From assembly GCF_900106645.1 (NCBI RefSeq), contig NZ_FNMV01000001.1, positions 310,001-374,000 of the forward strand: a stretch of 64,000 nt of DNA, read 5' to 3'. The position numbers and the translations under genes were made by a program. The notes beneath the pieces were generated by a model. The model was not told where the DNA came from, made no database searches, and saw nothing but the letters and a program-made list of their open reading frames with translations. Positions 17,843 through 53,461 of the stretch are shown here, one piece after another. Source of the DNA: Flavobacterium degerlachei (lineage in GTDB: Bacteria; Bacteroidota; Bacteroidia; Flavobacteriales; Flavobacteriaceae). The stretch's first letter is position 1, and the number at the start of each line of letters is the position of its first letter.

Positions 17843-20482
17843 TTGAAAATAAACTTATTTAGATATTCAATTCCAGTAGGATTGTTAGTTTTTTTGGTAG
17901 CCTGCTCTACTAAGAACAACAGTTTCTTGTCTAGAAATTCTCATGCTTTAAGCACCCAATACAATATTTTATACAACGGTCAAATAGGATTAGACAAAGG
18001 TGTTGAGAGCATAAAATCCAGTAGCAATGACAATTTTTGGAAACGTTTGCCCATCGAAAGAATGCAAATTAACGAAGAGTTAACTGCAGAGGGGAAAACT
18101 AAAAACCAGGATTTTGAATTGGCTGAAACCAAAGCAACCAAAGCTATTCAAAAACATTCTATGAATATTGACGGCAGGGAAAGGAACTCTCAAATAGATG
18201 AAGCCTATTTATTGTTAGGGAAAGCCCGTTATTATGACCAAAGATTTATTCCTGCTTTAGACGCATTCAATTACATATTATATAAATACCCAAATAGCAG
18301 CAAAATTTATGAAGCTAAAATTTGGCGTGAAAAAGCTAATATGCGCTTGGGCAATGATGCTGTAGTAGTTAGTAACATGTCTAGACTATTGAAGGATCAA
18401 AAACTAAATAAGCAGGTTCTTGCTGATGCAAATGCACTTTTATCACAAGCTTTTTTAAATCTTGAAGAGAAAGACAGTGCTGTCGCCAAATTAAAATTAG
18501 CCGAAAAATACACCAAACGAAACAATGAAAGAGCGAGATATCGATTTATATTGGGACAGCTCTATGAAGAATTAGGTAAGAAAGACAGTGCTTTATATAG
18601 TTATGAGTCCGTAATAGAGATGAATCGAAAATCTGAAAGGAAGTACGTTATTCAATCGCAAGCAAGGAAAGCACAGTTATTTGACTATCAAAAAGGAGAT
18701 ACTACTGCCTTCCTGAAAAATTACAACAAATTGATTGCTGACCGTGAAAATAGACCATTTTTGGACTTACTTTTCTATCAGAAAGCTGTTTTTTATGACA
18801 AAAATGGCAATCAAAAACTAGCTTCTAAGTTTTATAATGCCTCACTAAAAAAAGCAACGACAGACGAATATTTGATTGCCTCAAATTATAGAGATTTAGG
18901 AAATTTGTATTTTAAAGAAGCGAAGTATCCAATTGCAGCGAAGTATTACGACAGCACTTTAGTCAAACTTGATGTAAAAACTAGAGAATTCATTCATATT
19001 CAGAAAATTAGAAAGGATTTAGACGAAGTTATTCTATACGAAGCATTAGCCTCAAGAAATGACAGTATTATAAATATCGTTTCATTGCCTGAAGCAGGAA
19101 GAGTTATGTACTTTGAAAACTTTATAGAGAAACTAAAAAAGGAAGACGAAGTTAAAAGAATAGCGGAAGCGGAATTACAAACGAAACTCGAGAACATTGA
19201 GAGAAACAGCAAAACGCTATCTATTGACCCAGCCATTGCTAACCAAAATCCAGGAATGTCAGTACGGAAATCACCGCTATTGCCTCCGTCAATGACAAGT
19301 ATAAATCAAGAACAGAACACGTTCTACTTTTATAATCCTACAACAGTAGCATTTGGGAAAGTAGAATTTAAAAAAACATGGGGGCAAAGGGCTTTAAAAG
19401 GAAACTGGCGTCAATCATCATTCAATCCAACGGCAATTTCAAATATAGCTTCAACAGATACAATTAATTCCACCCTAAAATCTGAAGGAGATGCTGTAGC
19501 AGAATCAGAGCAAATTATAGACGAATACACTACTGATTTCTATCTAAAACAACTGCCTACAAGTCAAAAAGTGATAGATAGCATTGCTAAGGAGCGTAAC
19601 TCGGCCTATTATCAACTTGGGGTGATTTATAAAGAAAAATTCAAGGAATACGAATTGGCTACGAACAAACTGGAACAATTATTGAGCAATAATCCAGAAG
19701 AAAAGTTGATCCTTCCGGCAATGTATAATTTATATAAAATATACCAAATTACCGATAGTGTCAAAGCAGAAGCGATGAGAAACAGTATCAACAGTAAATA
19801 TCCGGATTCTCGATATGCACAATTGATAAATAACACAACTGTAGAGGAAGCCTCATTAGTTGGTACTCCTGAAGGGATTTACAACAAATGGTATAAATTG
19901 TATGAAGAAGAGAAGTATTTTGCTGTTTTAGAAGAATTAGATGGCTTGATCAATCAGTTTTCAGCTGATGAAATTGTTTCTAAATTTGAATTACTAAAAG
20001 CAAATTCAATTGGTAAACTAAAAGGATTATCTGCCTATAAAGTAGCATTACAATATTTAGCGGATAATTACTCGAACACTGAAGAAGGAAAAAATGCACA
20101 GGAAATTTTGATCAATCAAATTCCCTTTTTAGAAAAAATGGATTTTAATACCAAAGACACTAAAAACTGGAAAATTCTTTATAGAGTGACAACAAAAGAA
20201 GACAATAGCACAAAAGCAATTGAAGATAAAATAAAGAAATTTATTACCACTAATAATGGTCAAGGATTAAAATATTCATTTGATATTTATACTGGTAAAG
20301 AGAATTTCATAACAGTTCACGGTTTAAACAGTGAAGCGCATGCTCGAAATATAGCTTCGCTTTTGAAAGTAAATAAAGAATATAAAATTGAGGAACTAGC
20401 AGTTGTGATCACAAATGAAAATTATAAAGTAGCCCAAATCAATAAAAATCTTGATGCTTATTTAGCATCAATATACAAATAG
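17843..20482 (+). CDS. sprE: Type IX secretion / gliding motility TPR lipoprotein SprE (PorW)
   Basis: An 879-residue lipoprotein. The signal peptide ends in the lipobox VFLVACST (Cys at residue 21). Several tetratricopeptide-like repeats follow (AYLLLGKARYYDQRFIPALDAFNYIL, YRFILGQLYEELGKKDSALYSYE, YRDLGNLYFKEAKYPIAAKYYD), then a low-similarity central part and a second repeat region (AYYQLGVIYKEKFKEYELA). Length, order and the SRNSHALSTQYNILYNG opening match SprE/PorW, needed for type IX secretion and gliding in Flavobacterium johnsoniae and Porphyromonas gingivalis. Start is TTG; no nearby ATG would retain the signal peptide. The bactofilin gene begins two bases after the stop. Confidence 0.88.
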   Translation: MKINLFRYSIPVGLLVFLVACSTKNNSFLSRNSHALSTQYNILYNGQIGLDKGVESIKSSSNDNFWKRLPIERMQINEELTAEGKTKNQDFELAETKATKAIQKHSMNIDGRERNSQIDEAYLLLGKARYYDQRFIPALDAFNYILYKYPNSSKIYEAKIWREKANMRLGNDAVVVSNMSRLLKDQKLNKQVLADANALLSQAFLNLEEKDSAVAKLKLAEKYTKRNNERARYRFILGQLYEELGKKDSALYSYESVIEMNRKSERKYVIQSQARKAQLFDYQKGDTTAFLKNYNKLIADRENRPFLDLLFYQKAVFYDKNGNQKLASKFYNASLKKATTDEYLIASNYRDLGNLYFKEAKYPIAAKYYDSTLVKLDVKTREFIHIQKIRKDLDEVILYEALASRNDSIINIVSLPEAGRVMYFENFIEKLKKEDEVKRIAEAELQTKLENIERNSKTLSIDPAIANQNPGMSVRKSPLLPPSMTSINQEQNTFYFYNPTTVAFGKVEFKKTWGQRALKGNWRQSSFNPTAISNIASTDTINSTLKSEGDAVAESEQIIDEYTTDFYLKQLPTSQKVIDSIAKERNSAYYQLGVIYKEKFKEYELATNKLEQLLSNNPEEKLILPAMYNLYKIYQITDSVKAEAMRNSINSKYPDSRYAQLINNTTVEEASLVGTPEGIYNKWYKLYEEEKYFAVLEELDGLINQFSADEIVSKFELLKANSIGKLKGLSAYKVALQYLADNYSNTEEGKNAQEILINQIPFLEKMDFNTKDTKNWKILYRVTTKEDNSTKAIEDKIKKFITTNNGQGLKYSFDIYTGKENFITVHGLNSEAHARNIASLLKVNKEYKIEELAVVITNENYKVAQINKNLDAYLASIYK

Positions 20483-39768: not shown

Positions 39769-40794
39769 TTATTGAAATTGAATATAGCTTGGTTTTGGTG
39801 TGAATTTCAGCAATTCTTCTGGAGTGTACATTTTTGAATTGTTCCAATTGTCATTTTTATAAAACAATTTAAAACCAGTAAACTGGACCGGCTCTCTATA
39901 AATATAAGTCAGATAGGTTGATCTTTTTAACACTCTACTTCCAAAACCATCCATATCCATCACTACCTGAACCTCAGGAAGCGTTTTTATTCTTTTATAG
40001 TCGGTTACCATTCCTTGGGTGAAACGGTGTACAACAAGGACTTTAGGCGTTAGTTTGTTTTCACGAACAACCTTTGCTAGAATATCAATGGCGTCATTTA
40101 TATCATCGGCTGTAAAACTTCCAATTTTAGTTCCAGGAACATGACCGTTTTTCAAAGAAAACTCAGGGTCAATTCCTAAATGAACATTGGGTAAAGAAAG
40201 GTATTTTATCAATTCGCTCACTTCTGCTTTAACAGTACTGTGTCCTATTTGAATGTCTAAAAACACCAAAGCATCAATGGGTTTTGCCCATTTAAGAACG
40301 GTATCTATTTGTTTGAACGGCATGCGCATGCGATACATGTTTGCGCTTCCTGGCGATCCTTGAGCTGTAACGGCTATGTAATGTAATGCGGGAATCGCTT
40401 TTACCGTAGAATCGGCTGCGTTCCATTTGGCAACCTCACCTTGCAGTTTTGCTATCATTTGCTCCCTTGGGATTTCACCTAAAATCCCCATTCTTGTAGA
40501 ATATAAATTTCCGTAAAAAGCAATTATTCTGTTGTACGGCAATAAAGCTCCAGGCAAAGGATAAGGAGTTTTAACTGGCCACCTTCCGGTAGTGTCGTTG
40601 TTGCTTAGCGCAATCATTCTTTTATTGTAGTCTACAGTGTCGATTGTAGCTTGGGCCTTTTTCTTTACAGAATCTATCTTTACTTCTGTAATTTTTTCAT
40701 TTCCTTTCACTTCATCGGCAGCTTTACCTTGATTGCAACTGGAAAGTAAAATTAATTGGGTAAAAATAAGGAAGGTAATTGCTGTCTTTTTCAT
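39769..40794 (-). CDS. Lipoprotein of unknown family, possible TIM-barrel
   Basis: A 341-residue lipoprotein (signal MKKTAITFLIFTQLILLSSC, Cys20). After a charged linker comes a domain with successive strand-like segments: RIIAFYGNLY, ALHYIAVTAQGSPGS, DALVFLDIQIGHST, VHLGIDPEFSLKNGHVPG, KVLVVHRFTQGMV, VQVVMDMDGFGSR and FTGFKLFYKND. Alternating short strands with acidic ends (LDIQ, DPEFS, DMDGFG) resemble a glycoside-hydrolase barrel. I recall similar uncharacterised secreted proteins with an LDPE segment in Actinobacteria. Co-location with a NodB deacetylase suggests joint action on one glycan. No family is assigned. Confidence 0.65.
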   Translation of the reverse strand: MKKTAITFLIFTQLILLSSCNQGKAADEVKGNEKITEVKIDSVKKKAQATIDTVDYNKRMIALSNNDTTGRWPVKTPYPLPGALLPYNRIIAFYGNLYSTRMGILGEIPREQMIAKLQGEVAKWNAADSTVKAIPALHYIAVTAQGSPGSANMYRMRMPFKQIDTVLKWAKPIDALVFLDIQIGHSTVKAEVSELIKYLSLPNVHLGIDPEFSLKNGHVPGTKIGSFTADDINDAIDILAKVVRENKLTPKVLVVHRFTQGMVTDYKRIKTLPEVQVVMDMDGFGSRVLKRSTYLTYIYREPVQFTGFKLFYKNDNWNNSKMYTPEELLKFTPKPSYIQFQ

Positions 40795-40921: not shown

Positions 40922-41956
40922 CTATTTGCTTTTTAATGGATTAAAAGAGGATTTTCTAATGATGAGATTGGTTTTTATTTCGATTGTTTTATGGCTGACT
41001 TCATTTTCAGTATTAATTTCTTCAATTAGATATTTAACGGCAACTTCACCTATCCTGTTCCCTGGCTGATCAATACTGGATAAACTAGGTTTTATGATTG
41101 TAGAGAATCTAGAATTACTGAAACCTACTACTGCAATTTCCTTTGGAATCTTAACTTTATTTTTTTTGAGTTGCATAATTGCCCCAATGCCTGCCTCGTC
41201 TATTATAGTAAATATCCCATCCGGTTTATTTTGAAGACTTAGTAAAACGGTGGTTAGTCGCTCGCCTTCTTCGATAGAAAGGTCTTCAGAGCTTAGTATA
41301 ATACTCTCGTCTACCTCTAAATTGTATGTTTTTAATGCTCGTAGGTATCCTTGAAATCGTCTTTCAGAAACATTGGAACTATCTGTTTCTTTAAGAATTG
41401 CAATTCTTTTTTTGCCAATAGTAATCAGGTGTTCCACGGCTTTAAATGCGGCATCCTCATCATCAATAATTATTTGCGTACAAGGCACTTTATTTGAAAT
41501 TCTGTCAAACAATATCAACGGGATGTGTTGTGTCATTTCTAGAATTTCCTCCACATTTTGAGTTTTTTTGGTCAAGGATAATAAAACACCATCTACTCCA
41601 AACTGACTCATTGTTTCTAGTAATTCGGCTTGTTTACGTTCATTATTGAAAGATTCGCAAATAATAACTTTATAACCACTTAATTCTGCCGTTGAAAGTA
41701 TTCCTCTTAATAACGTAGATGTAAATTGATGTTCGATATCAGGAATAATTACTCCAATTATATTTGATTTTTGGGAGCGAAACCCTTTCGCAAATAGATT
41801 TGGCGCGTATTTTACTTTATTGGCGTAAGCCTTAACTCGCTCTCTTGTTTCATCGCTGATGTCTATATGGTTATTTAATGCTCTGGAAACGGTTGAAATA
41901 GACAATCCTAATTCAAAAGCCATTTTTTTTAAGGTAATAATATTTTTTTTGCGCAT
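40922..41956 (-). CDS. LacI family transcriptional regulator
   Basis: A 344-residue repressor. The helix-turn-helix is ITLKKMAFELGLSISTVSRALNNHIDIS, followed by the hinge helix region and IGVIIPDIEHQFTSTLLRGI, the start of a periplasmic-binding-protein-like sensor domain. That domain continues through GIFTIIDEAGIGAIMQLK and AVVGFSNSRFSTIIKPSLSSIDQP. It is divergent from the TonB receptor gene of a putative glycosylglycerate locus. Its own -33 element lies next to a 16-bp LacI-type palindrome, so autoregulation and control of the locus are likely. The inducer is probably the substrate or a breakdown product. Confidence 0.94.
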   Translation of the reverse strand: MRKKNIITLKKMAFELGLSISTVSRALNNHIDISDETRERVKAYANKVKYAPNLFAKGFRSQKSNIIGVIIPDIEHQFTSTLLRGILSTAELSGYKVIICESFNNERKQAELLETMSQFGVDGVLLSLTKKTQNVEEILEMTQHIPLILFDRISNKVPCTQIIIDDEDAAFKAVEHLITIGKKRIAILKETDSSNVSERRFQGYLRALKTYNLEVDESIILSSEDLSIEEGERLTTVLLSLQNKPDGIFTIIDEAGIGAIMQLKKNKVKIPKEIAVVGFSNSRFSTIIKPSLSSIDQPGNRIGEVAVKYLIEEINTENEVSHKTIEIKTNLIIRKSSFNPLKSK

Positions 41957-41974
41957 TTTTTATAGATATAATAG

Positions 41975-42004
41975 CAAAAGTACTAATTTTATTCTTGTTC
42001 GCAA
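41975..42004 (-). promoter_or_regulatory. lacI-type regulator promoter (-7 and -33)
   Basis: On the minus strand TACTTTTG (41975-41982) fits TAnnTTTG and a TTG (42002-42004) lies 19 bases upstream of it, the expected spacing of a Bacteroidota promoter. The -33 end sits in the outer half-site next to the palindromic operator. Confidence 0.7.
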
Positions 42005-42010
42005 ACGTTA

Positions 42011-42026
42011 CCGCAAACGTTTGCGG
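42011..42026. promoter_or_regulatory. LacI-type operator palindrome
   Basis: CCGCAAACGTTTGCGG is a perfect 16-bp palindrome centred on CG, as in LacI/PurR-family sites. A related half-site, GCAAACGTTA (42001-42010), abuts it. It lies between the divergent regulator and TonB receptor genes, 94 bases ahead of the receptor start. Confidence 0.85.
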
Positions 42027-42119
42027 AAGTTTTCGATTGAAATTTAGCATCAAAACAACGAAATCGATTTTAATTTAGCCAAACAAATAACCAAAAGATT
42101 AACTTAATTAAACCATGTT

Positions 42120-44711
42120 ATGAAAAAGTATATTAAAGTTTTTTTACTGCTTATAGGAACTTATTCCTATTCGCAATCTACCGTTAAAGGGACGGTTACT
42201 GATGAACAAAACAATCCCATCCCTTCAGCAAATGTTGTGATTGTAGGAACAAATGATGGCGCTACAACAGATATTGATGGTAATTTTACTATCAAAACAG
42301 CTAAGACTGGTGCACAAAAAATTAAAGGGGTTTTTATTGGCTTTTTTCCACAAACTAAATCGATAACAATTTCTGGAGATGTAACAGTAAACTTTTCATT
42401 AAAAGAAAGTATTGAAAGTTTGGACGAGGTAGTTTTAACAGTGAGTTCTAGTAAGAGATCACAAAAAGAAACGCCACTTTCTATTACATCTTTAAGTGCA
42501 AAAGATTTAACCAAGTTAAACACAAGTAGCCAAGCTAATATTTTAAGAAGTATTCCTGGAATTACTACTGAAAACGGAGGTGGAGAGGTAGCATCAAACG
42601 TGTTTGTGAGAGGTTTACCTTCTGGAGGACAATTCCAGTTTAATCCTTTACAAATTGATGGAATGCCAGTTTTGGCAACTTTTGGTCTAAACTCATCAGC
42701 TCATGATGTTTATTTTAGAACTGACATCGGAATTAAAAGTTTAGAATTTGTACGTGGTGGATCTTCTGTATTGTACGGAGTAGGTTCAGTTGCAGGGATT
42801 ATTAACTACACAAGTGTAACAGGTTCTGAAACACCAAAAAACATTTTGAAATTAGAGTTAGGAACTAACTCAAGATATAAAGCTGACTTCTTGACAAGTG
42901 GACAATTAGGAGGTAAAGATTCAAAATTATTTTATGCATTGACAGGTTTTTATAGATATGATGAAGGACCAATAAAAACGGGTTTACCTACTGAAGGATA
43001 TCAGTTGAGAGGTAATATTAAGAAAGAAACAGAAAAAGGATCAATTACTTTTTCAGGACAATTTATTGACGATCAAGTACAGTTTTTCTTGCCTTACCCA
43101 CTTGAGGGAGGAACTAGAAACAGACCTACTGGAAATGATGGAAACGAAATCTTGACTTTACAAACTGTAGCTGCATCTAACTTTTCATACAAAACTCCAA
43201 ACGGAATGTACACTTCTCCTATTAGAGATGGGGTATCTACAAAAGGAGGATATTTCATGACTAATTTTGTACACAACTTTAATGACAATCTTAAAATTGA
43301 TGCAAAAATCAGAAAATCTAAATACGAGCACCAGTTTAATTTATTTTTAGATGGAAGTGGAGTTAGCGGAGCAAAAGCTGTTGAAACGCAACAAGAATAT
43401 AAAGATGCTAGAGGATTAACTACAGGAAATTTTACATTACAAAACGGTACTGCTTTAGATCCTAATGCTCGTTTATTTGAAAATAGAATATTGGATAGAA
43501 ACAGACCTTTAAGTGAATTGGTTTCAGATATCAAATTAAGTTATAAAACAGGAATTCATACTCTAACAGGAGGGACTTTTATGTCAAGATCTGAGGCAGG
43601 TGACTTTAATGTAACAACTAGTTATTTAAGTGAATACAGCAACCGCCCAGATTTAGTTAACTTATCTGGATATACTGTAAACGGAATTACAAATAGAGGA
43701 GTAGGTTATACAAACAGAAATATCTCAAGTAATAAATTAGCTTTCTTTTTTGCAGATGAGATTAAATTAGATCGTTGGAATTTTGATATTGGTATTCGTC
43801 ATGAAACAGCTTCAGGGAATATTGAAAACGAAAAAACAAAATCATATACTGTAGATAATACAGGTATTTCAAATTTGGATAATGTAGTTTGGGGTACAGG
43901 TTCTTTTCAAACAGGACACGTTTCAGCTAATGACTTTGCAGTTGCTTTAGCAGCTTTGTACAAAGTGAATGATAACGCAAGTGTTTACGGAAACTTTTCT
44001 AGAGGTTATTTCTTCCCAGAATTAAGAAGTGTGAAATTTGACGCATTTGACAATCCATCATCATACACATCTGAAAAAATTGTACAAGGAGAAGCGGGTT
44101 TAAAATATGGTAAAGGTTCATTCTCAGGAACTCTTGCTGCATTTATGTTGAACTTATCTGATAGAAGAGCGATTGAATTTATCAATGACCCAAATAGTGC
44201 AGCTCTTATTGAAAAAGTTGACAAACAAAGCACAAAATCATACGGTTTAGAGACTACTTGGAACTGGAGATTTATTGAAGGATTTACCTTCAACGGAACT
44301 TTTACCTATCAAAAACATGAGGTTACTAAGTCTGAAAAAACACCTGCAATCGTAGGAAACAAATTAGTAAGACAGCCTAATGTGATGTCAAAATTAGGAT
44401 TGTCATATGATAAAGCAAACTTTGATGCTAACCTTGACTATAGTTATGCAGGTGATAAATTTGCAAATGAGGCTAATACAATCAAGTTAGAAGGTTTTGG
44501 TATAGTAGATTTAAACCTTGGGTACACTTTTAATATTGGACAAAGTGACGAGACTTTACGTTTAGGACTTCAAAGTTTTAACTTATTAAACTCTGATGGA
44601 ATTACTGAAGGATCACCTAGAATAGGAAACAATCAAACAGAAGAAGAATTTTTTGTAGGAAGACCAATTATCCCAAGAACGGCTTTGGTTAACTTAACAT
44701 TTAGTTTCTAA
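42120..44711 (+). CDS. TonB-dependent outer-membrane receptor with carboxypeptidase-like domain
   Basis: An 863-residue transporter. It has a short signal peptide (MKKYIKVFLLLIGTYSYSQ) and a beta-sandwich domain (VKGTVTDEQNNPIPSANVVIVG). A plug follows (SQANILRSIPGITTENGG and VRGLPSGGQFQFNPLQIDGMPV), then a 22-strand-type barrel ending in aromatic residue F (ALVNLTFSF). No SusD partner follows, so it is not a classical starch-utilisation pair. Position and control by the LacI palindrome suggest it imports the substrate of the downstream hydrolase. A stable hairpin separates it from that gene. Confidence 0.93.
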   Translation: MKKYIKVFLLLIGTYSYSQSTVKGTVTDEQNNPIPSANVVIVGTNDGATTDIDGNFTIKTAKTGAQKIKGVFIGFFPQTKSITISGDVTVNFSLKESIESLDEVVLTVSSSKRSQKETPLSITSLSAKDLTKLNTSSQANILRSIPGITTENGGGEVASNVFVRGLPSGGQFQFNPLQIDGMPVLATFGLNSSAHDVYFRTDIGIKSLEFVRGGSSVLYGVGSVAGIINYTSVTGSETPKNILKLELGTNSRYKADFLTSGQLGGKDSKLFYALTGFYRYDEGPIKTGLPTEGYQLRGNIKKETEKGSITFSGQFIDDQVQFFLPYPLEGGTRNRPTGNDGNEILTLQTVAASNFSYKTPNGMYTSPIRDGVSTKGGYFMTNFVHNFNDNLKIDAKIRKSKYEHQFNLFLDGSGVSGAKAVETQQEYKDARGLTTGNFTLQNGTALDPNARLFENRILDRNRPLSELVSDIKLSYKTGIHTLTGGTFMSRSEAGDFNVTTSYLSEYSNRPDLVNLSGYTVNGITNRGVGYTNRNISSNKLAFFFADEIKLDRWNFDIGIRHETASGNIENEKTKSYTVDNTGISNLDNVVWGTGSFQTGHVSANDFAVALAALYKVNDNASVYGNFSRGYFFPELRSVKFDAFDNPSSYTSEKIVQGEAGLKYGKGSFSGTLAAFMLNLSDRRAIEFINDPNSAALIEKVDKQSTKSYGLETTWNWRFIEGFTFNGTFTYQKHEVTKSEKTPAIVGNKLVRQPNVMSKLGLSYDKANFDANLDYSYAGDKFANEANTIKLEGFGIVDLNLGYTFNIGQSDETLRLGLQSFNLLNSDGITEGSPRIGNNQTEEEFFVGRPIIPRTALVNLTFSF

Positions 44712-44725
44712 TATAATATTATCCA

Positions 44726-44763
44726 GGATGTCTTGGTATTAAACTATCAAGACATCCTTTTAA
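44726..44763 (+). terminator. Hairpin after the TonB receptor gene
   Basis: AGGATGTCTTG (44726-44736) and CAAGACATCCT (44749-44759) form a perfect 11-bp stem followed by TTTAAT. The short T-tract suggests partial termination, lowering expression of the cytoplasmic genes relative to the receptor. Confidence 0.7.
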
Positions 44764-44782
44764 TAAAAATAAAAAAAACGGT

Positions 44783-46093
44783 ATGAAAAAAGATTTGGTT
44801 ATTGAAGCGCAAAATGTATTAGATGGAAATTTTCAAGAAAAAGGATATTCTATCCCTTGTAAAGGATTATACCCTTTTCAATGGAAATGGGATTCTGGAT
44901 TTATAGCCATTGGTTTTGCCCATTACGATATGGAAAAAGCCAAAAGAGAAATGAAAACACTTTTAGATGCACAATGGGGGAATGGATTTATTCCGCATAT
45001 TGTATTTCATGTTGAGACAGATAGTTATTTTCCAGGACGTGATTTTCATTTATCAAAATTACATCCGGAATCTAATGATGCCTATCCTTCAACAGGAATG
45101 ACACAGCCACCAGTATTGGGTTTCACATTAGAAAAAATGTATCAGATTGCTACTGATAAAAAAGATGTTTTAGATTTTATCAAAGACAATATTGATAAGG
45201 TGTATGAAAATCATCAGTATTTTTATAAAAATAGAGATCCTCAAAATGAAGGCTTAGTTTACATTTACCACAACTGGGAGTCAGGAACGGATAATTCCCC
45301 TTTATGGGATGACATTTGGGATACAATGAACCCTCCTTCTTATACTTTTGAGCGAAGAGACACTACTCACGTTGATGCTTCTCAAAGACCTTCAAATAGA
45401 GAATACGACCATTATTTGCATATTATCGAAATAGCAAAAGAGCATAATTACGATGATAAAAAGATTGCTGAGCTGTCTCCGTTTTTGGTACAAGATCCTC
45501 TTTTTAACACCATGTTGATTAAGTCTAATGAAGCACTAATTGACTTGTATAAAATAATAGGTGGAAACGAAGACAAAATCAAGCAACTAGAGCAATGGCA
45601 GGCTAAAAGTAAAGCTTCATTTAACACTAAATTATACGATGCGGAATTAGGTGCTTATATCCATTATGATTTAAGAAATGAAAAACCAATTCGTTTTGTA
45701 AGTTCGTCTTCGTTCACTCCATTATTCGCAGGAATTCCAAGTAAGGAACAAGCAGCGACTATAATACAAACAATGATGACTAAATTTGGAGGTGACGATA
45801 TGTACTTGTGTGCGTCTTTCGATCCTACTAATGAAAGATTTAATCCTAAAAAGTATTGGAGAGGTCCGGTTTGGATCAATTTAAATTGGATTTTATATAA
45901 TGGATTAAAGGATTATGGATATGATGATATTGCTGCCAGAGTAAAATCAGATACAATGGAGTTGATTACAAAGGCTGGTTTTTATGAATATTTTGATCCA
46001 AGAAAATCGGAACATACTGAAGGAAGTAAAGGTTACGGCGGAGCAAACTTCTCTTGGAGTGCAGCTTTGTTTTTGGACATGTTAGACAATTAA
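44783..46093 (+). CDS. MGH1-like glycoside hydrolase (probable mannosyl-/glucosylglycerate hydrolase, GH63)
   Basis: A 436-residue (alpha/alpha)6-barrel glycosidase without signal peptide, so cytosolic. Residues 28-46 (GLYPFQWKWDSGFIAIGFA), NWESGTDNSPLWDD (164-177) and FYEYFDP (400-406) with a final YGGANFSWSAALFLDM match the MGH1/GH63 group. D170 and E402 are the likely acid/base pair by position. Characterised members of this length cleave mannosylglycerate or glucosylglycerate to hexose and D-glycerate. A glycerate kinase gene in the same cluster strongly supports that chemistry. Trehalase-like or other GH63 activity is the alternative. Confidence 0.85.
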   Translation: MKKDLVIEAQNVLDGNFQEKGYSIPCKGLYPFQWKWDSGFIAIGFAHYDMEKAKREMKTLLDAQWGNGFIPHIVFHVETDSYFPGRDFHLSKLHPESNDAYPSTGMTQPPVLGFTLEKMYQIATDKKDVLDFIKDNIDKVYENHQYFYKNRDPQNEGLVYIYHNWESGTDNSPLWDDIWDTMNPPSYTFERRDTTHVDASQRPSNREYDHYLHIIEIAKEHNYDDKKIAELSPFLVQDPLFNTMLIKSNEALIDLYKIIGGNEDKIKQLEQWQAKSKASFNTKLYDAELGAYIHYDLRNEKPIRFVSSSSFTPLFAGIPSKEQAATIIQTMMTKFGGDDMYLCASFDPTNERFNPKKYWRGPVWINLNWILYNGLKDYGYDDIAARVKSDTMELITKAGFYEYFDPRKSEHTEGSKGYGGANFSWSAALFLDMLDN

Positions 46094-46111
46094 TATAAAA
46101 AACGAATCATT

Positions 46112-47734
46112 ATGAACTGGATTGACTATACGGTAGTAATTGTTTACTTAATTGCTTTTTTAGGATTAGGTTTTGTTTTTAAAGAAAACAAAGACGCCAA
46201 AGATTATTTTTTGGGTGGTAAGGATATGGGATGGTTTCCCTTGAGTTTATCAGCGATGGCGACCCAGCTCTCTGCAATTAGTTTTATATCTGCTCCTGCG
46301 TTTGTTGGGTTAGCGCAGGGTGGTGGAATGAAGTGGTTGACATTTGAGCTGGCCGTTCCATTGGCTATGATAGGGATTATTTTAATAATCGTTCCACCAT
46401 TGTACCGTGCTAATATAGTCAGTATTTATGAGTTCGTAGAGAGACGTTTTTCTACTTCAACACGTATTGTTTTGAGTCTTGTTTTTCAAATAAGTCGCTC
46501 GTTATCAACTGGGGTGGGAGTATATACGATTGCGATTATTTTGCAATCGGTACTGGATATTAGTTTTCACTGGACCATTCTTTTAATCACCATAATCACC
46601 ATTGTGTATTCCTACATGGGCGGAATGAAAGCCGTAGTTTGGGGTGATGCCATTCAAATGGTGATCTTGTTCGGAGGTTTACTGATTTGTATTTATTATG
46701 GATGGGATGTTCTTAAAGCTAATCCTAATTTTACAGGTTTTGATAGTGAACGCTTACAAGTAATTGACATTCCTAATCTTGGTTTTGACGGTGGAACTTA
46801 TGGGCTGTTGCCAATGGTTCTGGGAGGTTTGTTTTTATACCTTTCTTATTACGGTACTGATCAAACACAAGCGCAGCGATTAATTTCTGCAAAGGATGAA
46901 AATGCGGCTAAGAAAATATTATTGACTAACGGATTGTTGCGTTTTCCAGTGGTGTTGACCTATTGTATTATGGGTTTAATAGTAGGTGCATTAGTGCATT
47001 TGACACCTGATTTCATGAATGAAATTGCGTCTTTGACTCAAAAAAATTATCCTGAAGAATTCTTAAAAAACGGAATCAAACCTGATTTGATGTTGCCTGT
47101 TTTTATTATGAAATATTTGCCACACGGTTTAATTGGGATTTTAATTGTTGGGATTTTATCTGCGGCAATGTCTTCTGTGAGTGCTACAATACATTCACTT
47201 GGAGCGGTAACTGTTGAAGATCTTTTTAATAGAGGTAAAGTAAAATTAAGTCAAGCAAAATACATGAAATTCTCTAAGATTTCAATTGTGTTTTGGGGTG
47301 TTGTTTGTATTGCTTCGGCCTACCTTTTTGGGAATAACGGAGGGACAGTGATTGAATTGATAAACATGATTTCATCGCAATTTTATGGTCCTATTTTAGC
47401 CACTTTTATAATTGCTATTTTAGTAAAAAGAGTCAATTATATTGGTATGAATGTGGGAATCATAGGAGGAGTTTTGATAAATGTTGCTATCAAATTTTTC
47501 TTTGATGATATCTTCTGGATTTGGTTTAACCTTACTGGATTTGTAATCACTTTCGTTTTAGCATTAGTATTTAGTGCTTTGTTTAAAACCGAAAAAAATG
47601 AAGATATTAATATTGAGTTTAAGGTAAATAGAGGAGATATTTTTTCAAAAGATATAATCATATTAGCTGTATTTTTCTTAATCATATTAGCAGTGAGTTT
47701 CAGTTTACCAACACTTTTAGCGATGGTGAAATGA
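46112..47734 (+). CDS. Sodium:solute symporter (SSS family)
   Basis: A 540-residue inner-membrane transporter with about thirteen or fourteen helices. It opens with WIDYTVVIVYLIAFLGLGFVF, then DYFLGGKDMGWFPLSLSAMATQLSAISFISAPAF, which is typical of the SSS family, where the SAMATQLSAISF helix forms the sodium and substrate site. The gene starts 18 bases after the hydrolase stop. The context suggests it carries the intact glycosylglycerate, or another substrate of the hydrolase, across the inner membrane with sodium. Sugar and carboxylate transport both occur in this family. Confidence 0.92.
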   Translation: MNWIDYTVVIVYLIAFLGLGFVFKENKDAKDYFLGGKDMGWFPLSLSAMATQLSAISFISAPAFVGLAQGGGMKWLTFELAVPLAMIGIILIIVPPLYRANIVSIYEFVERRFSTSTRIVLSLVFQISRSLSTGVGVYTIAIILQSVLDISFHWTILLITIITIVYSYMGGMKAVVWGDAIQMVILFGGLLICIYYGWDVLKANPNFTGFDSERLQVIDIPNLGFDGGTYGLLPMVLGGLFLYLSYYGTDQTQAQRLISAKDENAAKKILLTNGLLRFPVVLTYCIMGLIVGALVHLTPDFMNEIASLTQKNYPEEFLKNGIKPDLMLPVFIMKYLPHGLIGILIVGILSAAMSSVSATIHSLGAVTVEDLFNRGKVKLSQAKYMKFSKISIVFWGVVCIASAYLFGNNGGTVIELINMISSQFYGPILATFIIAILVKRVNYIGMNVGIIGGVLINVAIKFFFDDIFWIWFNLTGFVITFVLALVFSALFKTEKNEDINIEFKVNRGDIFSKDIIILAVFFLIILAVSFSLPTLLAMVK

Positions 47735-47757
47735 TGATTAAATAGGTGAATTGCAAT

Positions 47758-47799
47758 CTAAAAACAGTACGATTTAAATTATAATTGTACTGTTTTTAG
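47758..47799. terminator. Hairpin after the symporter gene
   Basis: CTAAAAACAGTAC (47758-47770) and GTACTGTTTTTAG (47787-47799) are perfect 13-bp arms with a 16-base AT loop. T residues fall within the right arm, so it is a plausible terminator on either strand. Confidence 0.7.
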
Positions 47800-47861
47800 T
47801 TTTATAAAAGAATGATTAAACAGCAATCCTAATTTCGACGATTTTGAAAGTAATAATTGAA

Positions 47862-47948
47862 ATGTTATTTGCATTTCTAATTTTGGTTTCTATAATTAGT
47901 TCATTTGGTTTTGTACTCAGAATATTAGGAGGGCTGTTTTTAGTTTAA
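47862..47948 (+). CDS. Possible 28-residue single-span membrane peptide
   Basis: An ATG frame too short for routine gene calling encodes a very hydrophobic peptide starting MLFAFLILVSIISSFGF, with one Arg near residue 20. A TTG at 47844 could extend it by six residues. It lies in the 269-base gap between the symporter and glycerate kinase genes. There is no ribosome binding site or conservation evidence, so this may be chance in AT-rich DNA. Confidence 0.2.
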   Translation: MLFAFLILVSIISSFGFVLRILGGLFLV

Positions 47949-48003
47949 TTTTTGTCGAATAAAGAGTCACTGTGACCAATGATTCTGTAATAAAATAAAG
48001 AAA

Positions 48004-49131
48004 ATGAGAGTTGTCATTGCACCAGATAAATTCAAAGGATCCCTATCAGCGTTAGAAGTTTGTCTCGCCATAGAAAATGGAATTAAGAAATTTGATTCTT
48101 CTATTGAAACCATCAAGCATCCGCTTGCAGATGGAGGTGAGGGAACACTTGATATATTGCAAAACTACTTTGAACTAAAAACAGTTTCGTTACTTGTAAA
48201 AGATCCTTTATTTAGAGATATTACGGCTACTTATATGGTTTCTGAAGACACGGCTTATATAGAAATGTCTAATGCATCTGGACTTCAACTGTTAAGGGAA
48301 GAAGAAAAAAACTGTTGCAATACGACGACCTTCGGAACGGGTCAATTAATTTTAGATGCCGTCCAAAAAGGTTTTAAAAACATTGTGTTGTTCATTGGCG
48401 GAAGCGCAACAAATGATGCAGGTATAGGAATGGCAACAGCTTTAGGCTATCAATTTTATAATGCCGATAATAAAAGTATAGAGCCCATTGGAAAATCGTT
48501 GCTAAGTATTCACAAAATTGAAAATGACAAATTACTTTTCACTTTAAGTGATATCAATTTTACCGTGGTTTGTGATGTAAAAAACCCTTTGTACGGGCCA
48601 AATGGTGCAGCTTATGTTTATGGCGGCCAAAAAGGAGCTTCATCAGAAGAAATAGAAACATTAGACCTAGGATTGCAAAATTTCAGCAAACAGGTTTCTA
48701 AATATTTGCATAAGGAAGTGGCTGAAATTCTAGGAGCTGGAGCAGCCGGAGGATTGGGAGCAGGAGCAGTTTGCTTTTTGAATGCTACAATTAAATCAGG
48801 AATTGATTTTGTGATGGAACAAACGGGTTTTGATGCATTGCTAAAAGACCAAGTTGATTTAATAATCACAGGAGAAGGTTCTGTCGATAAGCAAACTATT
48901 GAAGGCAAAGTTATCAAGGGAATTAGCGAAAGAGCGATTCAAAACAACATTCCGTTTTCGATTATTTCTGGAATTGTAAAAGACGAGAAACTAATACAAG
49001 AAAACTTACATCCTAAAAGTATTGCTTCGATTATGGAATTAGGTGTTACTACTGCCGATGCTATGAAAAATGCTGCTTTGCACATAAATGGAATAGCGCA
49101 TAAATTGATAAAAGAACATAAGGCAAACTGA
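48004..49131 (+). CDS. Glycerate kinase (type 1, GlxK/GarK family)
   Basis: A 375-residue enzyme that phosphorylates D-glycerate (to 2-phosphoglycerate in this family) with ATP. Visible family motifs are VVIAPDKFKGSLSALEV at the N-terminus, HPLADGGEGTLDIL, IGGSATNDAGIGMATALGYQF, GAGAAGGLGAGAVCFL and ITGEGSVDKQTIEGK. Length is standard. With a GH63-type glycosylglycerate hydrolase and sodium symporter upstream and a LacI operator at the head of the locus, it would feed the glycerate released into glycolysis. A strong terminator follows. Confidence 0.95.
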   Translation: MRVVIAPDKFKGSLSALEVCLAIENGIKKFDSSIETIKHPLADGGEGTLDILQNYFELKTVSLLVKDPLFRDITATYMVSEDTAYIEMSNASGLQLLREEEKNCCNTTTFGTGQLILDAVQKGFKNIVLFIGGSATNDAGIGMATALGYQFYNADNKSIEPIGKSLLSIHKIENDKLLFTLSDINFTVVCDVKNPLYGPNGAAYVYGGQKGASSEEIETLDLGLQNFSKQVSKYLHKEVAEILGAGAAGGLGAGAVCFLNATIKSGIDFVMEQTGFDALLKDQVDLIITGEGSVDKQTIEGKVIKGISERAIQNNIPFSIISGIVKDEKLIQENLHPKSIASIMELGVTTADAMKNAALHINGIAHKLIKEHKAN

Positions 49132-49218: not shown

Positions 49219-49346
49219 TCTGCTAGGAATCAATCTTAGAATAAAAGAGTTGGATAGCCCAATTATTGGATTCACATAGCTATGATTTTCTATGATAAAG
49301 TGAAACGACTTTTAAGATTTATAAAATCTATGTTCCTAAGTGGTTA
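49219..49346. repeat. MITE-like repeat, copy 1 (degraded ends)
   Basis: The core from AAAGAGTTGGATAGCCCAAT (49244) to AAAATCTATG is nearly identical to copies 2 and 3. The right end reads CTATGTTCCTAAGTGGTT (two changes from the other copies) and the left arm is hardly recognisable. No coding capacity. Internal dyads CATAGCTATG and AGATTT-ATA-AAATCT are kept. Confidence 0.8.
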
Positions 49347-49398
49347 TTTTTTTTATTAGATTAATTACAGCTACTGGTTATATTCACTTTAAATTTTT

Positions 49399-49528
49399 TT
49401 AACCACATAGAAACATAGAGAAAAAAGAGTTGGATAGCCCAATTATTGGATTCACATAGCTATGTTTTTCTATAATAAAGTGGAACGACTTTTAAGATTT
49501 ATAAAATCTATGTTTCTATGTGGTTTAA
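49399..49528. repeat. MITE-like repeat, copy 2 (intact terminal inverted repeats)
   Basis: About 130 bp bounded by AACCACATAGAAACATAG (49401-49418) and its exact complement CTATGTTTCTATGTGGTT (49508-49525), with TTAA-like bases outside. The interior matches copies 1 and 3 at most positions. The structure, non-coding with 18-bp inverted ends, is like a miniature transposable element or a REP-type unit moved by a transposase encoded elsewhere. Confidence 0.85.
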
Positions 49529-49589
49529 CTTTTTATTTAGTAGATTAATTAATTTTATATTAATTATAGCCAAAGGCTTATCTTTAGTT

Positions 49590-49717
49590 TAACCACATAG
49601 AAACATAGGAAAAGAGAGTTGGATAGCGCAATTCTTGGATTCATATAGCTGTGATTTTCTATACTAAAGTGAAACGACTTTTAAGATTTATAAAATCTAT
49701 GTTTCTATGTAGTTTAA
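49590..49717. repeat. MITE-like repeat, copy 3
   Basis: Starts TTAACCACATAGAAACATAG (49590-49609) and ends CTATGTTTCTATGTAGTT (49697-49714), one mismatch in the inverted ends. Interior differs from copy 2 at scattered positions. Its last bases contribute to a promoter-like element for the TonB receptor gene that follows. Confidence 0.85.
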
Positions 49718-49722
49718 CTTTG
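49715..49722 (+). promoter_or_regulatory. -7-like element at the edge of repeat copy 3
   Basis: TAACTTTG matches TAnnTTTG and lies 50 bases ahead of the TTG start of the second TonB receptor. Its first bases come from the repeat end. No -33 TTG at standard distance. Confidence 0.45.
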
Positions 49723-49772
49723 TATCCAGCGATTAAAAAGCTAATTTTAGCTCTTCATTTAATCTCAAGTCC

Positions 49773-51860
49773 TTGAATACAAAAGCACAGTTGGTTTTTA
49801 GTCTTTTCATTATCCAATTTTACTTTTCCCCAGTTTTTGGACAAGTAAAAAAAGATACGACTTCGCTTGCTGAAATAATTATAAAAGCGACTCCAATCCA
49901 AATAGCATTACAAAAATCAGCTTCTTCAGTTGCAGTGATTCAAAGAGCAGATTTGGATAAAAGTGATGGAGTAATCCTGACTTCGGTACTCAATAAAATT
50001 CCGGGTATTAATATGCAGCAAGGTGCTTTGAATACCAATCGAATTAGTATTCGCGGAATAGGCGCTCGTTCTCAATACGGAACTAGCAGAATTAAAGCCT
50101 ATTTTGAAGATATTCCTTTGACGACTGGGGAAGGAGATACCACAATTGAAGATATCGATTTAGAAACTATTGGCGGAATCGAAATTAGCAAAGGTCCTAA
50201 CAACACTAGCTTTGGCTCCGGATTAGGCGGAGTGATTCATTTGTTTGCGCGAGAAACTCCCGCAAGAGAATCGTATGCTAAATCGGGGACGACTTATGGC
50301 AGTTATGGATTAATCAAACAAAGTCTGGGTGCCGGCTATAGTGATGCTAATTCGAATCTATTTTCTAATTATACGCATTTACAAAGTGATGGCTTTCGGG
50401 CAAATAGTTCTTATGATCGGAAGTCGGTTAATGTGCATGCGAAACAAAAATTAGGAACAAAAGGGAGTTTGTCTTTTCTGGGAATTTTTACTCGTCTGAA
50501 AGCGTTTATTCCGAGTTCTATAAATGAGAATGATTTTATAAACCATCCCGAAAAGGCGGCGAGTACTTGGGCAGCGGCACAAGGATATGAGTCGTATGAC
50601 AAATCACTTTTGGGCATCGGTTACAACTATTCTTTTTCAGACAAATGGACTTTTAAAAGCAGTGTTTTTTCTAATTTCAGAAAAGCGTACGAGCCAAGGC
50701 CTTTTAATATTTTGGACGAAAAAATAAATGGTTTAGGTTTTCGATCTACGCTAAATTATAAAGCCAAATTGTTTTCATTGCCTTTTGAAGCGAGTGTCGG
50801 AACTGAAATGCTAGCGGAGCAATATGCTTTTTCACTTTTCGAAAATTTGTATGTATCGCAGCCAGGAAAGGGCAGCATAGCTGGAGCCGAATTCAGCAAA
50901 ATGAACCAGAATCGGAATTATAGTAATTATTTTTTAGAAGTGAATATTGAGCTTGTAGAAAATCTTCATTTAGAAAGTGGCTTGGCTTTAAATACTACAA
51001 AATATACGCTGGAAGATGTTTTTGAGCAAAACGGAAATCAATTAGAACAAGGCTATACTTTTGGGAAAGTTTGGTCACCTAGACTTGGGATTTCCTATCA
51101 GCTAAGCGGCGGAAAAAATATATTTGGCTCTATTAGCAAAGGGTTTTCAGTGCCTTTGGTGGCTGAAACGCTAACTCCCGAAGGACAAATCAATACCGAC
51201 TTAAAGCCAGAAGTGGGACTTAATTATGAATTGGGTTTTAAAGGAAATTGGTTAGCATCAAAATTACACACAGAACTCGTTTTGTATAGCACCCAAATCA
51301 GCAATTTATTAGTAGCGCGACGTACTGCCGAAGATCAGTTTGTGGGGATTAATGCGGGAGAAAGTTCGCATCGCGGAATAGAACTTACGCTTAATTATAA
51401 ACTTTTAAAAAGAGCCAATTTCGAAATAGACTCTTATTTATCCGCATCTTTTAATGACTTTAAATTTAAAGATTTTGTTGATAATGGGATTGATTATTCT
51501 GGTAATCGGTTGACAGGAGTTCCCAATCAACAATGGAATGCCGGAATTGACTTGAAAACAGCAAGCGGATTTAGTTTCAACAGCTCTTTTACGAGTATGG
51601 GAAAAATCCCGATGAATGATTCGAATACAAAATACAGCGAAGGGTATTCGCTTTTGGATGTCAAAGCAACTTATAGTTTTACAATTTTAAAGGTTTTAAA
51701 ATCAACATTAAGTAGCGGAATTAATAATGTACTAGATCGCAAGTATGCCGCTAGTATTTTGCCTAATGCTACTGCTTTTGGCAACGCAGCGCCACGGTAT
51801 TATTATCCGGGAAGTCCAATCCAGTTTTATGGCGGAGTTTCTGTTACTTATCTTTTTTAG
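49773..51860 (+). CDS. TonB-dependent outer-membrane receptor (FecA/YncD-like size)
   Basis: A 695-residue receptor with signal peptide (LVFSLFIIQFYFSPVFGQ) and no carboxypeptidase-like domain. The plug carries SSVAVIQRADLDKSDGVILTSVLNKIPGINMQQGAL and SIRGIGARSQYGTSRIKAYFEDIPL. The barrel ends in VSVTYLF. The start is TTG. The next genes, convergent on the other strand, encode a cytochrome c and a PQQ sugar dehydrogenase. This suggests uptake of something related, perhaps PQQ itself, but siderophore or other ligands remain possible. Confidence 0.9.
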   Translation: MNTKAQLVFSLFIIQFYFSPVFGQVKKDTTSLAEIIIKATPIQIALQKSASSVAVIQRADLDKSDGVILTSVLNKIPGINMQQGALNTNRISIRGIGARSQYGTSRIKAYFEDIPLTTGEGDTTIEDIDLETIGGIEISKGPNNTSFGSGLGGVIHLFARETPARESYAKSGTTYGSYGLIKQSLGAGYSDANSNLFSNYTHLQSDGFRANSSYDRKSVNVHAKQKLGTKGSLSFLGIFTRLKAFIPSSINENDFINHPEKAASTWAAAQGYESYDKSLLGIGYNYSFSDKWTFKSSVFSNFRKAYEPRPFNILDEKINGLGFRSTLNYKAKLFSLPFEASVGTEMLAEQYAFSLFENLYVSQPGKGSIAGAEFSKMNQNRNYSNYFLEVNIELVENLHLESGLALNTTKYTLEDVFEQNGNQLEQGYTFGKVWSPRLGISYQLSGGKNIFGSISKGFSVPLVAETLTPEGQINTDLKPEVGLNYELGFKGNWLASKLHTELVLYSTQISNLLVARRTAEDQFVGINAGESSHRGIELTLNYKLLKRANFEIDSYLSASFNDFKFKDFVDNGIDYSGNRLTGVPNQQWNAGIDLKTASGFSFNSSFTSMGKIPMNDSNTKYSEGYSLLDVKATYSFTILKVLKSTLSSGINNVLDRKYAASILPNATAFGNAAPRYYYPGSPIQFYGGVSVTYLF

Positions 51861-51873
51861 TAAATCAGCTTAC

Positions 51874-52344
51874 TTATTGCTTTACGGCTTCCACTTGTTC
51901 CAGGCTAATCATTTTAGGATTTTTGTTGCTCCAAGAATTCCTAATATAATTCATCACATCAGCCACTTCTTGATTGGATAATCCCATGGCAGGCATGCTA
52001 CTGTTGAATTTTTTTCCGTTGACTACAATTTCACCTGATTGTCCAAATTTTATAGCATGAATACTTTGGGTTTCTTTTTTGCTGAGCCAATCAGAACCGT
52101 CCAGCGGAGGGAAGTTTTTAGAATCTCCTTTGCCGTTTGCAAGATGGCATTGCATGCAAAAATCAGCATAAACTTCTTTGCCTTTCGCCATGCTTTTTTC
52201 TAATGGTGTTTTTTCCTGATCGATTTTGGCAACAGCCAAATAATCACTTTCCCGACTTGAATTAAAGGCTTGAGTAGTATTCGAAAAATAGAACGCAGAC
52301 GAGAGTGAAAGCGCGAGTCCTACAATTAGTTTAGAGGTTAACAT
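51874..52344 (-). CDS. Periplasmic c-type cytochrome
   Basis: A 156-residue protein. A signal peptide (LIVGLALSLSSAFYFSNTTQA) is followed by a single heme-binding motif C63-MQ-C66-H67 and a late SMPAMGLSNQEVADVMNYIRNSW, in which M117 or M120 is the sixth heme ligand. This is a standard monoheme class I cytochrome. It starts one base after the stop of the PQQ sugar dehydrogenase gene, so it is the probable electron acceptor from that enzyme, passing electrons on to the respiratory chain. Confidence 0.92.
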   Translation of the reverse strand: MLTSKLIVGLALSLSSAFYFSNTTQAFNSSRESDYLAVAKIDQEKTPLEKSMAKGKEVYADFCMQCHLANGKGDSKNFPPLDGSDWLSKKETQSIHAIKFGQSGEIVVNGKKFNSSMPAMGLSNQEVADVMNYIRNSWSNKNPKMISLEQVEAVKQ

Positions 52345-52345
52345 A

Positions 52346-53461
52346 TTAATTCGGGATAATTTTAAGAATTCCTTTTCCTTCCACTCCTATGTAAATATAG
52401 CCGTCTGGACCTTGAGCTACATTTCGTAAACGCCCAACATCAGTAGCAATTTTTTGTCGCCCAATGATTTCATTTCCGTTTAGTTTTACCAATTCTAAGT
52501 ATTGAAATTTTAGTGAACCTACAAGCAAATGTCCTTTCCAGTCAGGATAGCGATCGCTAGTTACAAAAGCCATTCCGCTTGGTGCAATAGAAGGCACCCA
52601 ATAGTAAATGGGGTCTTCAATTCCCGGTTTTACTGTTTCAGAACTAATAGAAGTTCCGTCATAATCGATTCCGTAAGTAACCACAGCCCAGCCATAATTA
52701 GCGGCTTTCTTGATGATGTTAATTTCGTCACCACCTTTTGGACCGTGTTCGTGTTCCCAAACATCTCCTGTAATAGGATTTATAGCTAATCCTTGTGGGT
52801 TTCTGTTACCATAAGTATAAATGGCTTCTTTTGCATTTTTTTGACCTACAAAAGGATTGTCTTTTGGAATACTGCCATCATCATTTAGACGGTATATTTT
52901 TCCGTTATCACGTGTAATGTCTTGTGGATTTACAAAATGCTCACCTCGTTCCCCAGCTGAGAAATAGAGATATCCCGCTTTGTCAAAAACAATTCGAGAA
53001 CCAAAATGTTGCCCCTTGGTCGTATTGGGTCCGCATTTGTATAAAGATTCTATTTGTGTTAAAGCTCCGTCTAGCAATTTAGTACGAATCAGTTTAGTGT
53101 TTCCTCCCTCGCCTTCACCCTCAGTAGAGGCGTAAGTGATATAAATCCAACCATTTTTAGCATAGTCAGGATGCACGGCAATATCAAGTAATCCTCCTTG
53201 TCCACGATTGTAAACTGCAGGAACATTTTTTATTTCCGTTTTTACCCCATTTTTAATTTGGTATAAAATCCCGCTTTTTTCGGTAACTAATAAAGTTCCG
53301 TCTGGCAACCAAGCCATTCCCCAAGGGTTTTGAATACCATCAGCGACTGATTCAAGAGTATAATTTTTGACTTCGTCCTGAAGGATTAGATCATTTGGAT
53401 TTTTCTGCGCTTGGCAGCTGAATATAATAAAGGGAAGTAGTAGTAGGCTGATTCTTTTCAT
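52346..53461 (-). CDS. PQQ-dependent sugar dehydrogenase (soluble, aldose type) lipoprotein
   Basis: A 371-residue six-bladed beta-propeller of the glucose/sorbosone dehydrogenase family. The lipoprotein signal ends in FIIFSCQAQ (Cys16). Family motifs include NPWGMAWLPDGTLLVTEKSG, GGLLDIAVHPDY, KGQHFGSRIVFDKAGYLYFSAGERGE (PQQ/base His region), GNRNPQGLAINP, WEHEHGPKGGDEIN and NYGWAVVTYGIDYDG. It oxidises aldose sugars outside the inner membrane and passes electrons, here most likely to the adjacent cytochrome c. Nothing for PQQ synthesis is seen in the window. Confidence 0.92.
   Translation of the reverse strand: MKRISLLLLPFIIFSCQAQKNPNDLILQDEVKNYTLESVADGIQNPWGMAWLPDGTLLVTEKSGILYQIKNGVKTEIKNVPAVYNRGQGGLLDIAVHPDYAKNGWIYITYASTEGEGEGGNTKLIRTKLLDGALTQIESLYKCGPNTTKGQHFGSRIVFDKAGYLYFSAGERGEHFVNPQDITRDNGKIYRLNDDGSIPKDNPFVGQKNAKEAIYTYGNRNPQGLAINPITGDVWEHEHGPKGGDEINIIKKAANYGWAVVTYGIDYDGTSISSETVKPGIEDPIYYWVPSIAPSGMAFVTSDRYPDWKGHLLVGSLKFQYLELVKLNGNEIIGRQKIATDVGRLRNVAQGPDGYIYIGVEGKGILKIIPN

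Follow-up and report, generated by a model that had tools for sequence, protein, structure and literature searches.

The DNA analyzed here is a 64,000-nucleotide stretch (hereafter, the window) of the Flavobacterium degerlachei genome, which is 3.86 Mb in size, is distributed over 43 contigs and is 99.92% complete. The G+C content of the window is 33%. Positions 40922–49131 hold a putative glycosylglycerate catabolic locus of five genes, whose proteins were assigned to families using the curated cut-offs of Pfam and NCBIfam. The gene on the minus strand (40922–41956) encodes a LacI-family regulator, which passes the cut-offs of PF00356 and PF00532. On the plus strand lie the genes for a TonB-dependent receptor without a SusD partner (42120–44711; PF00593, PF07715 and PF13715, all over cut-off), a putative mannosyl-/glucosylglycerate hydrolase of the GH63 MGH1 type (44783–46093), a sodium:solute symporter of the SSS family (46112–47734; PF00474; TIGR00813, 202.8 bits against a cut-off of 184) and a glycerate kinase of the PF02595 type (48004–49131). 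These are the five genes that the initial annotation had named, and all five open reading frames (ORFs) were recovered at these positions with family scores over the cut-offs. Two features, a tandem LacI operator and a hairpin between the symporter and kinase genes, are additional to what that annotation had listed.

The locus was compared with related loci, taken as the best 80 of 114 hydrolase relatives from a scan of genome contigs; their gene content was judged by BLAST to the window proteins. By their names the related loci are from flavobacteria, and at least one of them, L010 (Frigoriflavimonas), belongs to Weeksellaceae, not to Flavobacteriaceae. All five genes occur together in 67 of the 80 loci, an arrangement that is far beyond chance. 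A LacI homologue is present in 73 loci and is both receptor-adjacent and divergent in 69. The kinase is present in 76; among the other four, L025, L063 and L071 are cut by contig ends, and L073 lacks it at that place. In 75 loci the kinase gene directly follows the symporter gene; in 69 of these, the two are at most 50 bases apart. At the level of sequence, the genes, families, active-site residues, operator and linkage are in place.

The hydrolase matches PF22422 (MGH1-like) over the entire profile (1–356 of 356) with 315.8 bits (cut-off 27; E-value of 7e-94). Among solved structures it is best matched by Thermus TTHA0978 (2z07 and 4wva; E-value of 2.5e-92 with 2z07) and then by the Mycolicibacterium hassiacum glucosylglycerate hydrolase, and its nearest relatives are from Flavobacterium species, at 87%. 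The AlphaFold model of the hydrolase (predicted local distance difference test, pLDDT, 87; predicted template modelling score, pTM, 0.91) matches 4wva, the Thermus mannosylglycerate hydrolase (MGH), with a Z score of 55.1 and a root mean square deviation of 1.6 over 411 aligned residues. The Z scores of the other structures are 50.0 for 5ohz, 35.1 for YgjK and 32.7 for trehalase. Four matches to PF22422 were found in the whole genome, two of them within one protein; according to the profile alignment, which is remote and rough, the two other PF22422 proteins lack the equivalents of Arg202 and Tyr82. By eye, no signal peptide is apparent on the hydrolase, which would place cleavage of the solute in the cytosol.

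Two catalytic Asp/Glu residues and 11 substrate residues, which PMC6608630 gives as conserved among characterised enzymes, were mapped onto the hydrolase by alignment; in the available text of that paper, 2-O-alpha-D-mannopyranosyl-D-glycerate is abbreviated as MG. All 13 are kept (Tyr30, Trp34, Trp36, Asp37, Tyr82, Gln108, Gly168, Asp170, Arg202, Tyr208, Tyr358, Trp359 and Glu402), and each is invariant in the 81 sequences formed by the window and the 80 loci. They include Tyr30, Trp34, Tyr82, Arg202 and Tyr358, which correspond to the glycerate-contacting residues of the mycobacterial enzyme. Phe423, which is Phe also in Thermus MGH and corresponds to mycobacterial Gln434, is likewise present in 81 of 81 sequences. 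Like the MGH of Thermus thermophilus HB8 (GH63; 4wva and 2z07), with which it shares 38–40% identity, the window hydrolase has the fold, the 13 residues and the Phe at the mycobacterial Gln434 position. Different from Thermus, which makes mannosylglycerate itself, no such synthase was found here, and the gene lies in an import-like locus. The M. hassiacum enzyme (5ohc; 33% identity over 401 positions) also has the same fold and 13 residues, but carries Gln434 in place of Phe; according to the available text of PMC6608630, it serves cells that recover from nitrogen starvation, during which they accumulate the solute.

The glycerate kinase scores 386.7 bits with TIGR00045 (cut-off 168.45) and 422.4 bits with PF02595 (cut-off 23.3; E-value of 1.9e-126). 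Its PDB relatives are 3cwc and 1to6, and it is the single match in a PF02595 profile search of the whole genome. The initial annotation had suggested a search for co-occurrence of hydrolase and kinase, which we ran on a family sample of 149 genomes with the hydrolase called at an E-value of 1e-60 or lower. A PF02595 kinase is present in all 20 hydrolase-bearing genomes, compared to 42 of the 129 others (Fisher p of 2.9e-9, uncorrected for kinship). In 18 of the 20 genomes, all except G065 and G095, it lies within a few kilobases of the hydrolase.

In the window, the symporter and kinase genes are separated by 269 bases, which contain a terminator-like hairpin of 17 bp followed by a T-run (47758–47799, plus strand), predicted from sequence and folding. 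In most other loci this gap is about 10 bases. Hairpins also fold in the longer gaps (105–302 bases) of L005, L007, L009 and L011; no strong hairpin was folded in the gaps of L006 and L008, which are 46 and 48 bases in length. In some members of the clade of the window, the expression of the kinase gene may thus be uncoupled in part.

Next to the receptor, the hydrolase is the following ORF of at least 90 codons in all 74 loci with a receptor homologue; the receptor itself scores 97.3 bits with TIGR04056, below the SusC cut-off of 368.25. The SusC/SusD pair that marks a polysaccharide utilization locus is therefore missing, since no ORF of at least 90 codons lies between the two genes in any of the 74 loci, and the view that the receptor has no SusD partner was borne out. 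Like the SusCD-type polysaccharide utilization loci of Bacteroidota, the locus combines a TonB receptor, a glycoside hydrolase and a regulator. Different from them, it has no SusD, no secreted enzyme was seen, the regulator is of the LacI family, and the substrate would be a small solute. The symporter is related in the PDB to the sodium/iodide cotransporter, to the bacterial sodium:solute symporter 5nv9 and to SGLTs. The receptor would serve import across the outer membrane, and the symporter import of the intact solute across the inner membrane.

Between the LacI and receptor genes we predict a tandem overlapping LacI operator, TTCGCAAACGTTACCGCAAACGTTTGCGGA (41998–42027). A site with no more than two mismatches to CGCAAACGTTTGCG is present in all 73 LacI-upstream regions (15 exact, 45 with one mismatch and 13 with two), compared to 7 of 365 stretches picked at random from these loci, where the site may in some cases be the operator itself. 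By eye, many regions have a second, overlapping operator half. A palindromic operator with a central CG thus stands beside the regulator gene, as is expected of a LacI regulon. In the 3.86 Mb genome, the 12-base core is present in exact form at a single place. A wider regulon was considered and rejected: when one mismatch is allowed, the genome gives 9 forward matches, equal to the reversed control pattern, and the one-mismatch site at window position 18039 lies inside a coding sequence. Away from the LacI end, sites with one mismatch at most were found in three of the 80 loci, L043, L048 and L082. The site of L043 is intergenic and upstream of the receptor gene, where no LacI homologue was found; those of L048 and L082 are within ORFs behind the kinase gene. 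Between symporter and kinase genes, neither the window nor any of the 80 loci has such a site.

Promoter candidates were found on both sides of the operator. For the receptor gene, the candidate -7 box is TAATTTAG (42071–42078, plus strand), and a similar box with the same spacing is present in relatives. In 65 of 70 regions, compared to 7.4 in shuffles, a box of the TANNTT type, known for Bacteroidota promoters, lies 50–62 bases from where the last operator core starts, using a pattern that was widened after looking. Stricter forms of the box gave 31 and 30 of 70 regions, and the canonical TANNTTTG was found at that spacing in 15 of 71. For the LacI gene, sequence and scan gave a weak candidate, TTTG-N19-TANNTTTG (41975–42005, minus strand), whose upstream box lies inside the operator, which suggests autoregulation. 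A conserved LacI promoter of this form was rejected: TANNTTTG is scattered on the LacI strand, and the spaced pair is exact in one of 74 regions, that of the window itself.

The evidence on the sugar comes from the genes behind the kinase in the related loci. In nine of them (L013, L014, L035, L044, L047, L053, L058, L064 and L066) a class I ManA gene directly follows the kinase gene, and all nine match TIGR00218. In six others (L005, L006, L007, L010, L029 and L034) the kinase gene is followed by a gene for a 171-residue cupin, with PF01050 matched in six of six. Mannose-6-phosphate isomerase-type genes of two unlike families are thus present in 15 of the 76 kinase-bearing loci. The gaps between kinase and isomerase genes range from -20 to 14 bases; the value of -20 belongs to the longest ORF of L035, for which the later start used in the alignment gives 37. 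A same-strand ORF starts within 20 bases of the kinase end in 16 loci, and in 15 of these, L070 being the exception, the ORF encodes ManA or the cupin; where the operon is extended, this is thus usually by an isomerase-type gene. One further locus, L052, has an ROK sugar kinase gene behind the kinase gene. The use of mannose requires mannose-6-phosphate isomerase, whereas that of glucose does not. The linked isomerase-type genes therefore indicate that the hexose is probably mannose, and favour mannosylglycerate over glucosylglycerate.

The two isomerase-type families were analyzed separately. The linked ManA copies cluster in the tree; a single clade is not established. With 19 rows, two changes are needed (6.5 in shuffles) and 0% of the bootstrap trees have one, so the linked copies were not accepted as one clade; the support of 99/96 seen in a 17-row tree, from which two further copies had been left out, was not upheld. 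This is probably because a non-linked Olleya copy (L101) falls among the linked ones. The starred branches are compatible with one origin, and the very long row of L102 makes the tree unsure. Other ManA copies in the nine genomes with a linked ManA comprise at least one full-length copy in six, only a 37% partial match in one, and none in two. The further ManA on L101 (6882–8905; genome G157, which also holds L066) lies outside the locus and is overlapped by a LacI-family gene, at 32% to the window LacI; this pair is perhaps another mannose regulon. In L005 (9097–9609), L010 (10744–11256) and L029 (10604–11116) the cupin stands alone in the place of ManA. A PDB sequence search with the 171-residue cupin at 0.001 found no relative, so its isomerase activity is assigned from PF01050, and it is possibly a minimal mannose-6-phosphate isomerase.

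Taken together, the substrate is very probably a glycosylglycerate, and we hold with nearly the same confidence that this is a LacI-controlled catabolic locus for such a solute, most likely mannosylglycerate (2-O-alpha-mannosyl-D-glycerate), which is the same compound as digeneaside. That mannosylglycerate, rather than glucosylglycerate, is the main natural substrate is likely, with a lesser degree of confidence. The anionic heteroside would cross the outer membrane through the TonB receptor and be taken intact into the cytosol by the sodium symporter. There the GH63 hydrolase, with Asp170 as acid and Glu402 as base by homology, would release mannose and D-glycerate; the glycerate kinase would convert D-glycerate to phosphoglycerate, and mannose would enter glycolysis via a hexose kinase and a mannose-6-phosphate isomerase, here encoded elsewhere. 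LacI would bind the tandem palindrome that separates its gene from that of the receptor, with the solute or a product as effector. The substrate and its transport, the inducer, the flux and the sign of regulation are what we infer here. The proposal of the initial annotation, import and breakdown of a glycosylglycerate, is supported, and the linked isomerase-type genes of the relatives refine it towards mannosylglycerate.

Several observations weigh against this interpretation. The window locus has no linked isomerase gene; ManA is encoded elsewhere in the genome, near an ORF that by eye resembles isopentenyl-diphosphate isomerase, and the 171-residue cupin is absent from the genome. No isomerase-type neighbour was recognised in 61 of the 76 kinase-bearing loci, in which not every neighbour was scanned. 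Although the genome is 99.92% complete, a search for ROK proteins, which 12 of 14 control genomes match, found none in it; other kinase families were not sought. The only NCBIfam glycosylglycerate model to match is that of glucosylglycerate hydrolase (NF047898, an equivalog model), and at 324.8 bits the hydrolase is far under its cut-off of 550, so it cannot be filed as that equivalog. The residues cannot choose the sugar either, because, according to the available text of PMC6608630, the enzymes characterised from Thermus and Selaginella are about equally efficient on the two solutes. The 42 family genomes that have a PF02595 kinase without the hydrolase also count here. In the window strain, the hairpin and the 269-base gap may weaken the co-regulation of the kinase, which for this reason may not be simply co-transcribed. 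With its position about 45 bases before the candidate -7 box, the operator would suit an activator and a repressor equally. Finally, the hydrolase is present in one of 121 genomes of a genus sample, only that of the window itself, so the locus is a rare accessory in the genus, although there are named Flavobacterium species that have it.

The alternative that survives best, though it is unlikely, has glucosylglycerate, a compatible solute of cyanobacteria and nitrogen-starved mycobacteria, as the natural substrate, with glucose and D-glycerate as products. The use of both solutes by relatives, the partial NF047898 match, which is the best in NCBIfam, and the window locus without a linked isomerase gene all suit it, and the glycerate kinase fits it equally. 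It is opposed by residue 423, which is as in Thermus MGH, and by the two isomerase-type families in 15 of 76 loci, which would not be needed for glucose. Much less probable is that the hydrolase acts on some other alpha-glycoside, whose aglycone is a small acid or polyol (e.g. glucosylglycerol or a kojibiose-like disaccharide), while the kinase serves a neighbouring pathway; although the fold is common to GH63 and GH37 enzymes and the kinase occurs in 42 of 129 family genomes without the hydrolase, the five glycerate-contacting residues are all kept, 76 of 80 loci contain the kinase, and in the available text of PMC6608630 the mycobacterial enzyme is inactive on glucosylglycerol and glucosylglycolate. 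A trehalase or ordinary alpha-glucosidase locus with a misleading family name, the better fit that the initial annotation said would refute its reading, is very improbable: the hydrolase does pass the Pfam Trehalase cut-off of 21 (63.4 bits, 2.4e-17), but this compares with 315.8 bits for PF22422, its scores with TreF (45.2 of 512 bits), TreA (31.5 of 560) and the YgjK-type models are far below cut-off, Thermus MGH is the best structure (Z score of 55.1 vs 35.1 for YgjK and 32.7 for trehalase), and the genome has a separate trehalase-like protein (by eye) with other residues at the glycerate-binding positions.

A further possibility considered was that the locus recycles a solute made by the cell itself. 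The genome has no mannosyl-3-phosphoglycerate synthase, in a search that the control Thermus composti matches, and no over-cut-off glucosyl-3-phosphoglycerate synthase; synthases of other types were not sought. The lack of these two types argues against recycling. NF010496 gave 14 matches in the genome, none of which reached the cut-off of 262 bits (the best scored 59.5); they are probably glycosyltransferases of a generic kind, because the model also matches 14 of 14 controls and is over cut-off in only one.

A catabolic locus for mannosylglycerate has known counterparts. Like the E. coli mng system, it would combine mannosylglycerate catabolism with a regulator of its own. Different from mng, which uses phosphotransferase uptake and a GH38 mannosidase, it has a TonB receptor, a sodium symporter and a GH63 hydrolase. 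According to the available text of PMC8072126, Maribacter dokdonensis 62-1 has homologues of the digeneaside degradation genes that are among the traits characterised in Zobellia galactanivorans (Barbeyron et al. 2016), and that of PMC6298971 names digeneaside among the possible substrates of North Sea flavobacterial loci. The gene set described here is present in other species of Zobellia and Maribacter. The published Zobellia and Maribacter genes, which have the same predicted substrate, are likely the same loci. Since digeneaside degradation genes were already reported, the idea of such a locus is not new, and the window probably provides a well-documented further example of a known locus type. 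In the literature searched, as far as its text was available and with subscription papers and supplements outside, we met no earlier description of the operator, the linkage counts, the isomerase evidence or the full gene set; the available texts of PMC5507952 and PMC8706122 have nothing on a mannosylglycerate pathway.

The differing flanks of the loci and the rarity in the genus suggest that the locus is mobile. The add-on modules comprise the two unlike mannose-6-phosphate isomerase types, the ROK kinase and an uncharacterised GNAT acetyltransferase. We put forward tentatively, at slightly less than even chance, a class-wide and horizontally mobile flavobacterial digeneaside regulon, with SusD-free TonB uptake of a heteroside of less than 300 Da, a dedicated LacI operator pair and add-on modules that are optional. 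A conserved regulated locus for digeneaside in dozens of flavobacteria would provide a genetic marker of red-algal heteroside turnover, with a small anionic glycoside as a candidate TonB substrate. In most Ceramiales red algae, digeneaside is formed and accumulated instead of floridoside (PMC8523428, in its available text, citing Kremer 1978).

Some minor observations were made around these loci. In 22 of the 80 loci (e.g. L021, 9334–9924; L053, 5329–5958), the hydrolase gene is directly followed by a gene of some 200 codons; the L021 member, the one scanned, is a GNAT acetyltransferase (PF13302), and we know of no role for such an enzyme in mannosylglycerate use. On the LacI side of the window locus, a 341-residue ORF (39769–40794), lipoprotein-like by eye and without Pfam or NCBIfam match at 0.001, adjoins a polysaccharide deacetylase gene. 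Behind the kinase gene, window positions 49240–49725 contain three direct copies of an A+T-rich repeat, which are 117 nt in length, 91–100% alike and spaced by 180 and 189 bases; the window has no further full copies. The region 49773–53461 holds another TonB receptor gene, which has a TTG start and gives PqqU as its best NCBIfam match (181 of 1200 bits). A 685-codon gene also follows the kinase gene in L008 and L009. Beside the receptor gene, on the other strand, there are by eye a cytochrome c-like gene (51874–52344) and a sorbosone-dehydrogenase-like gene (52346–53461).

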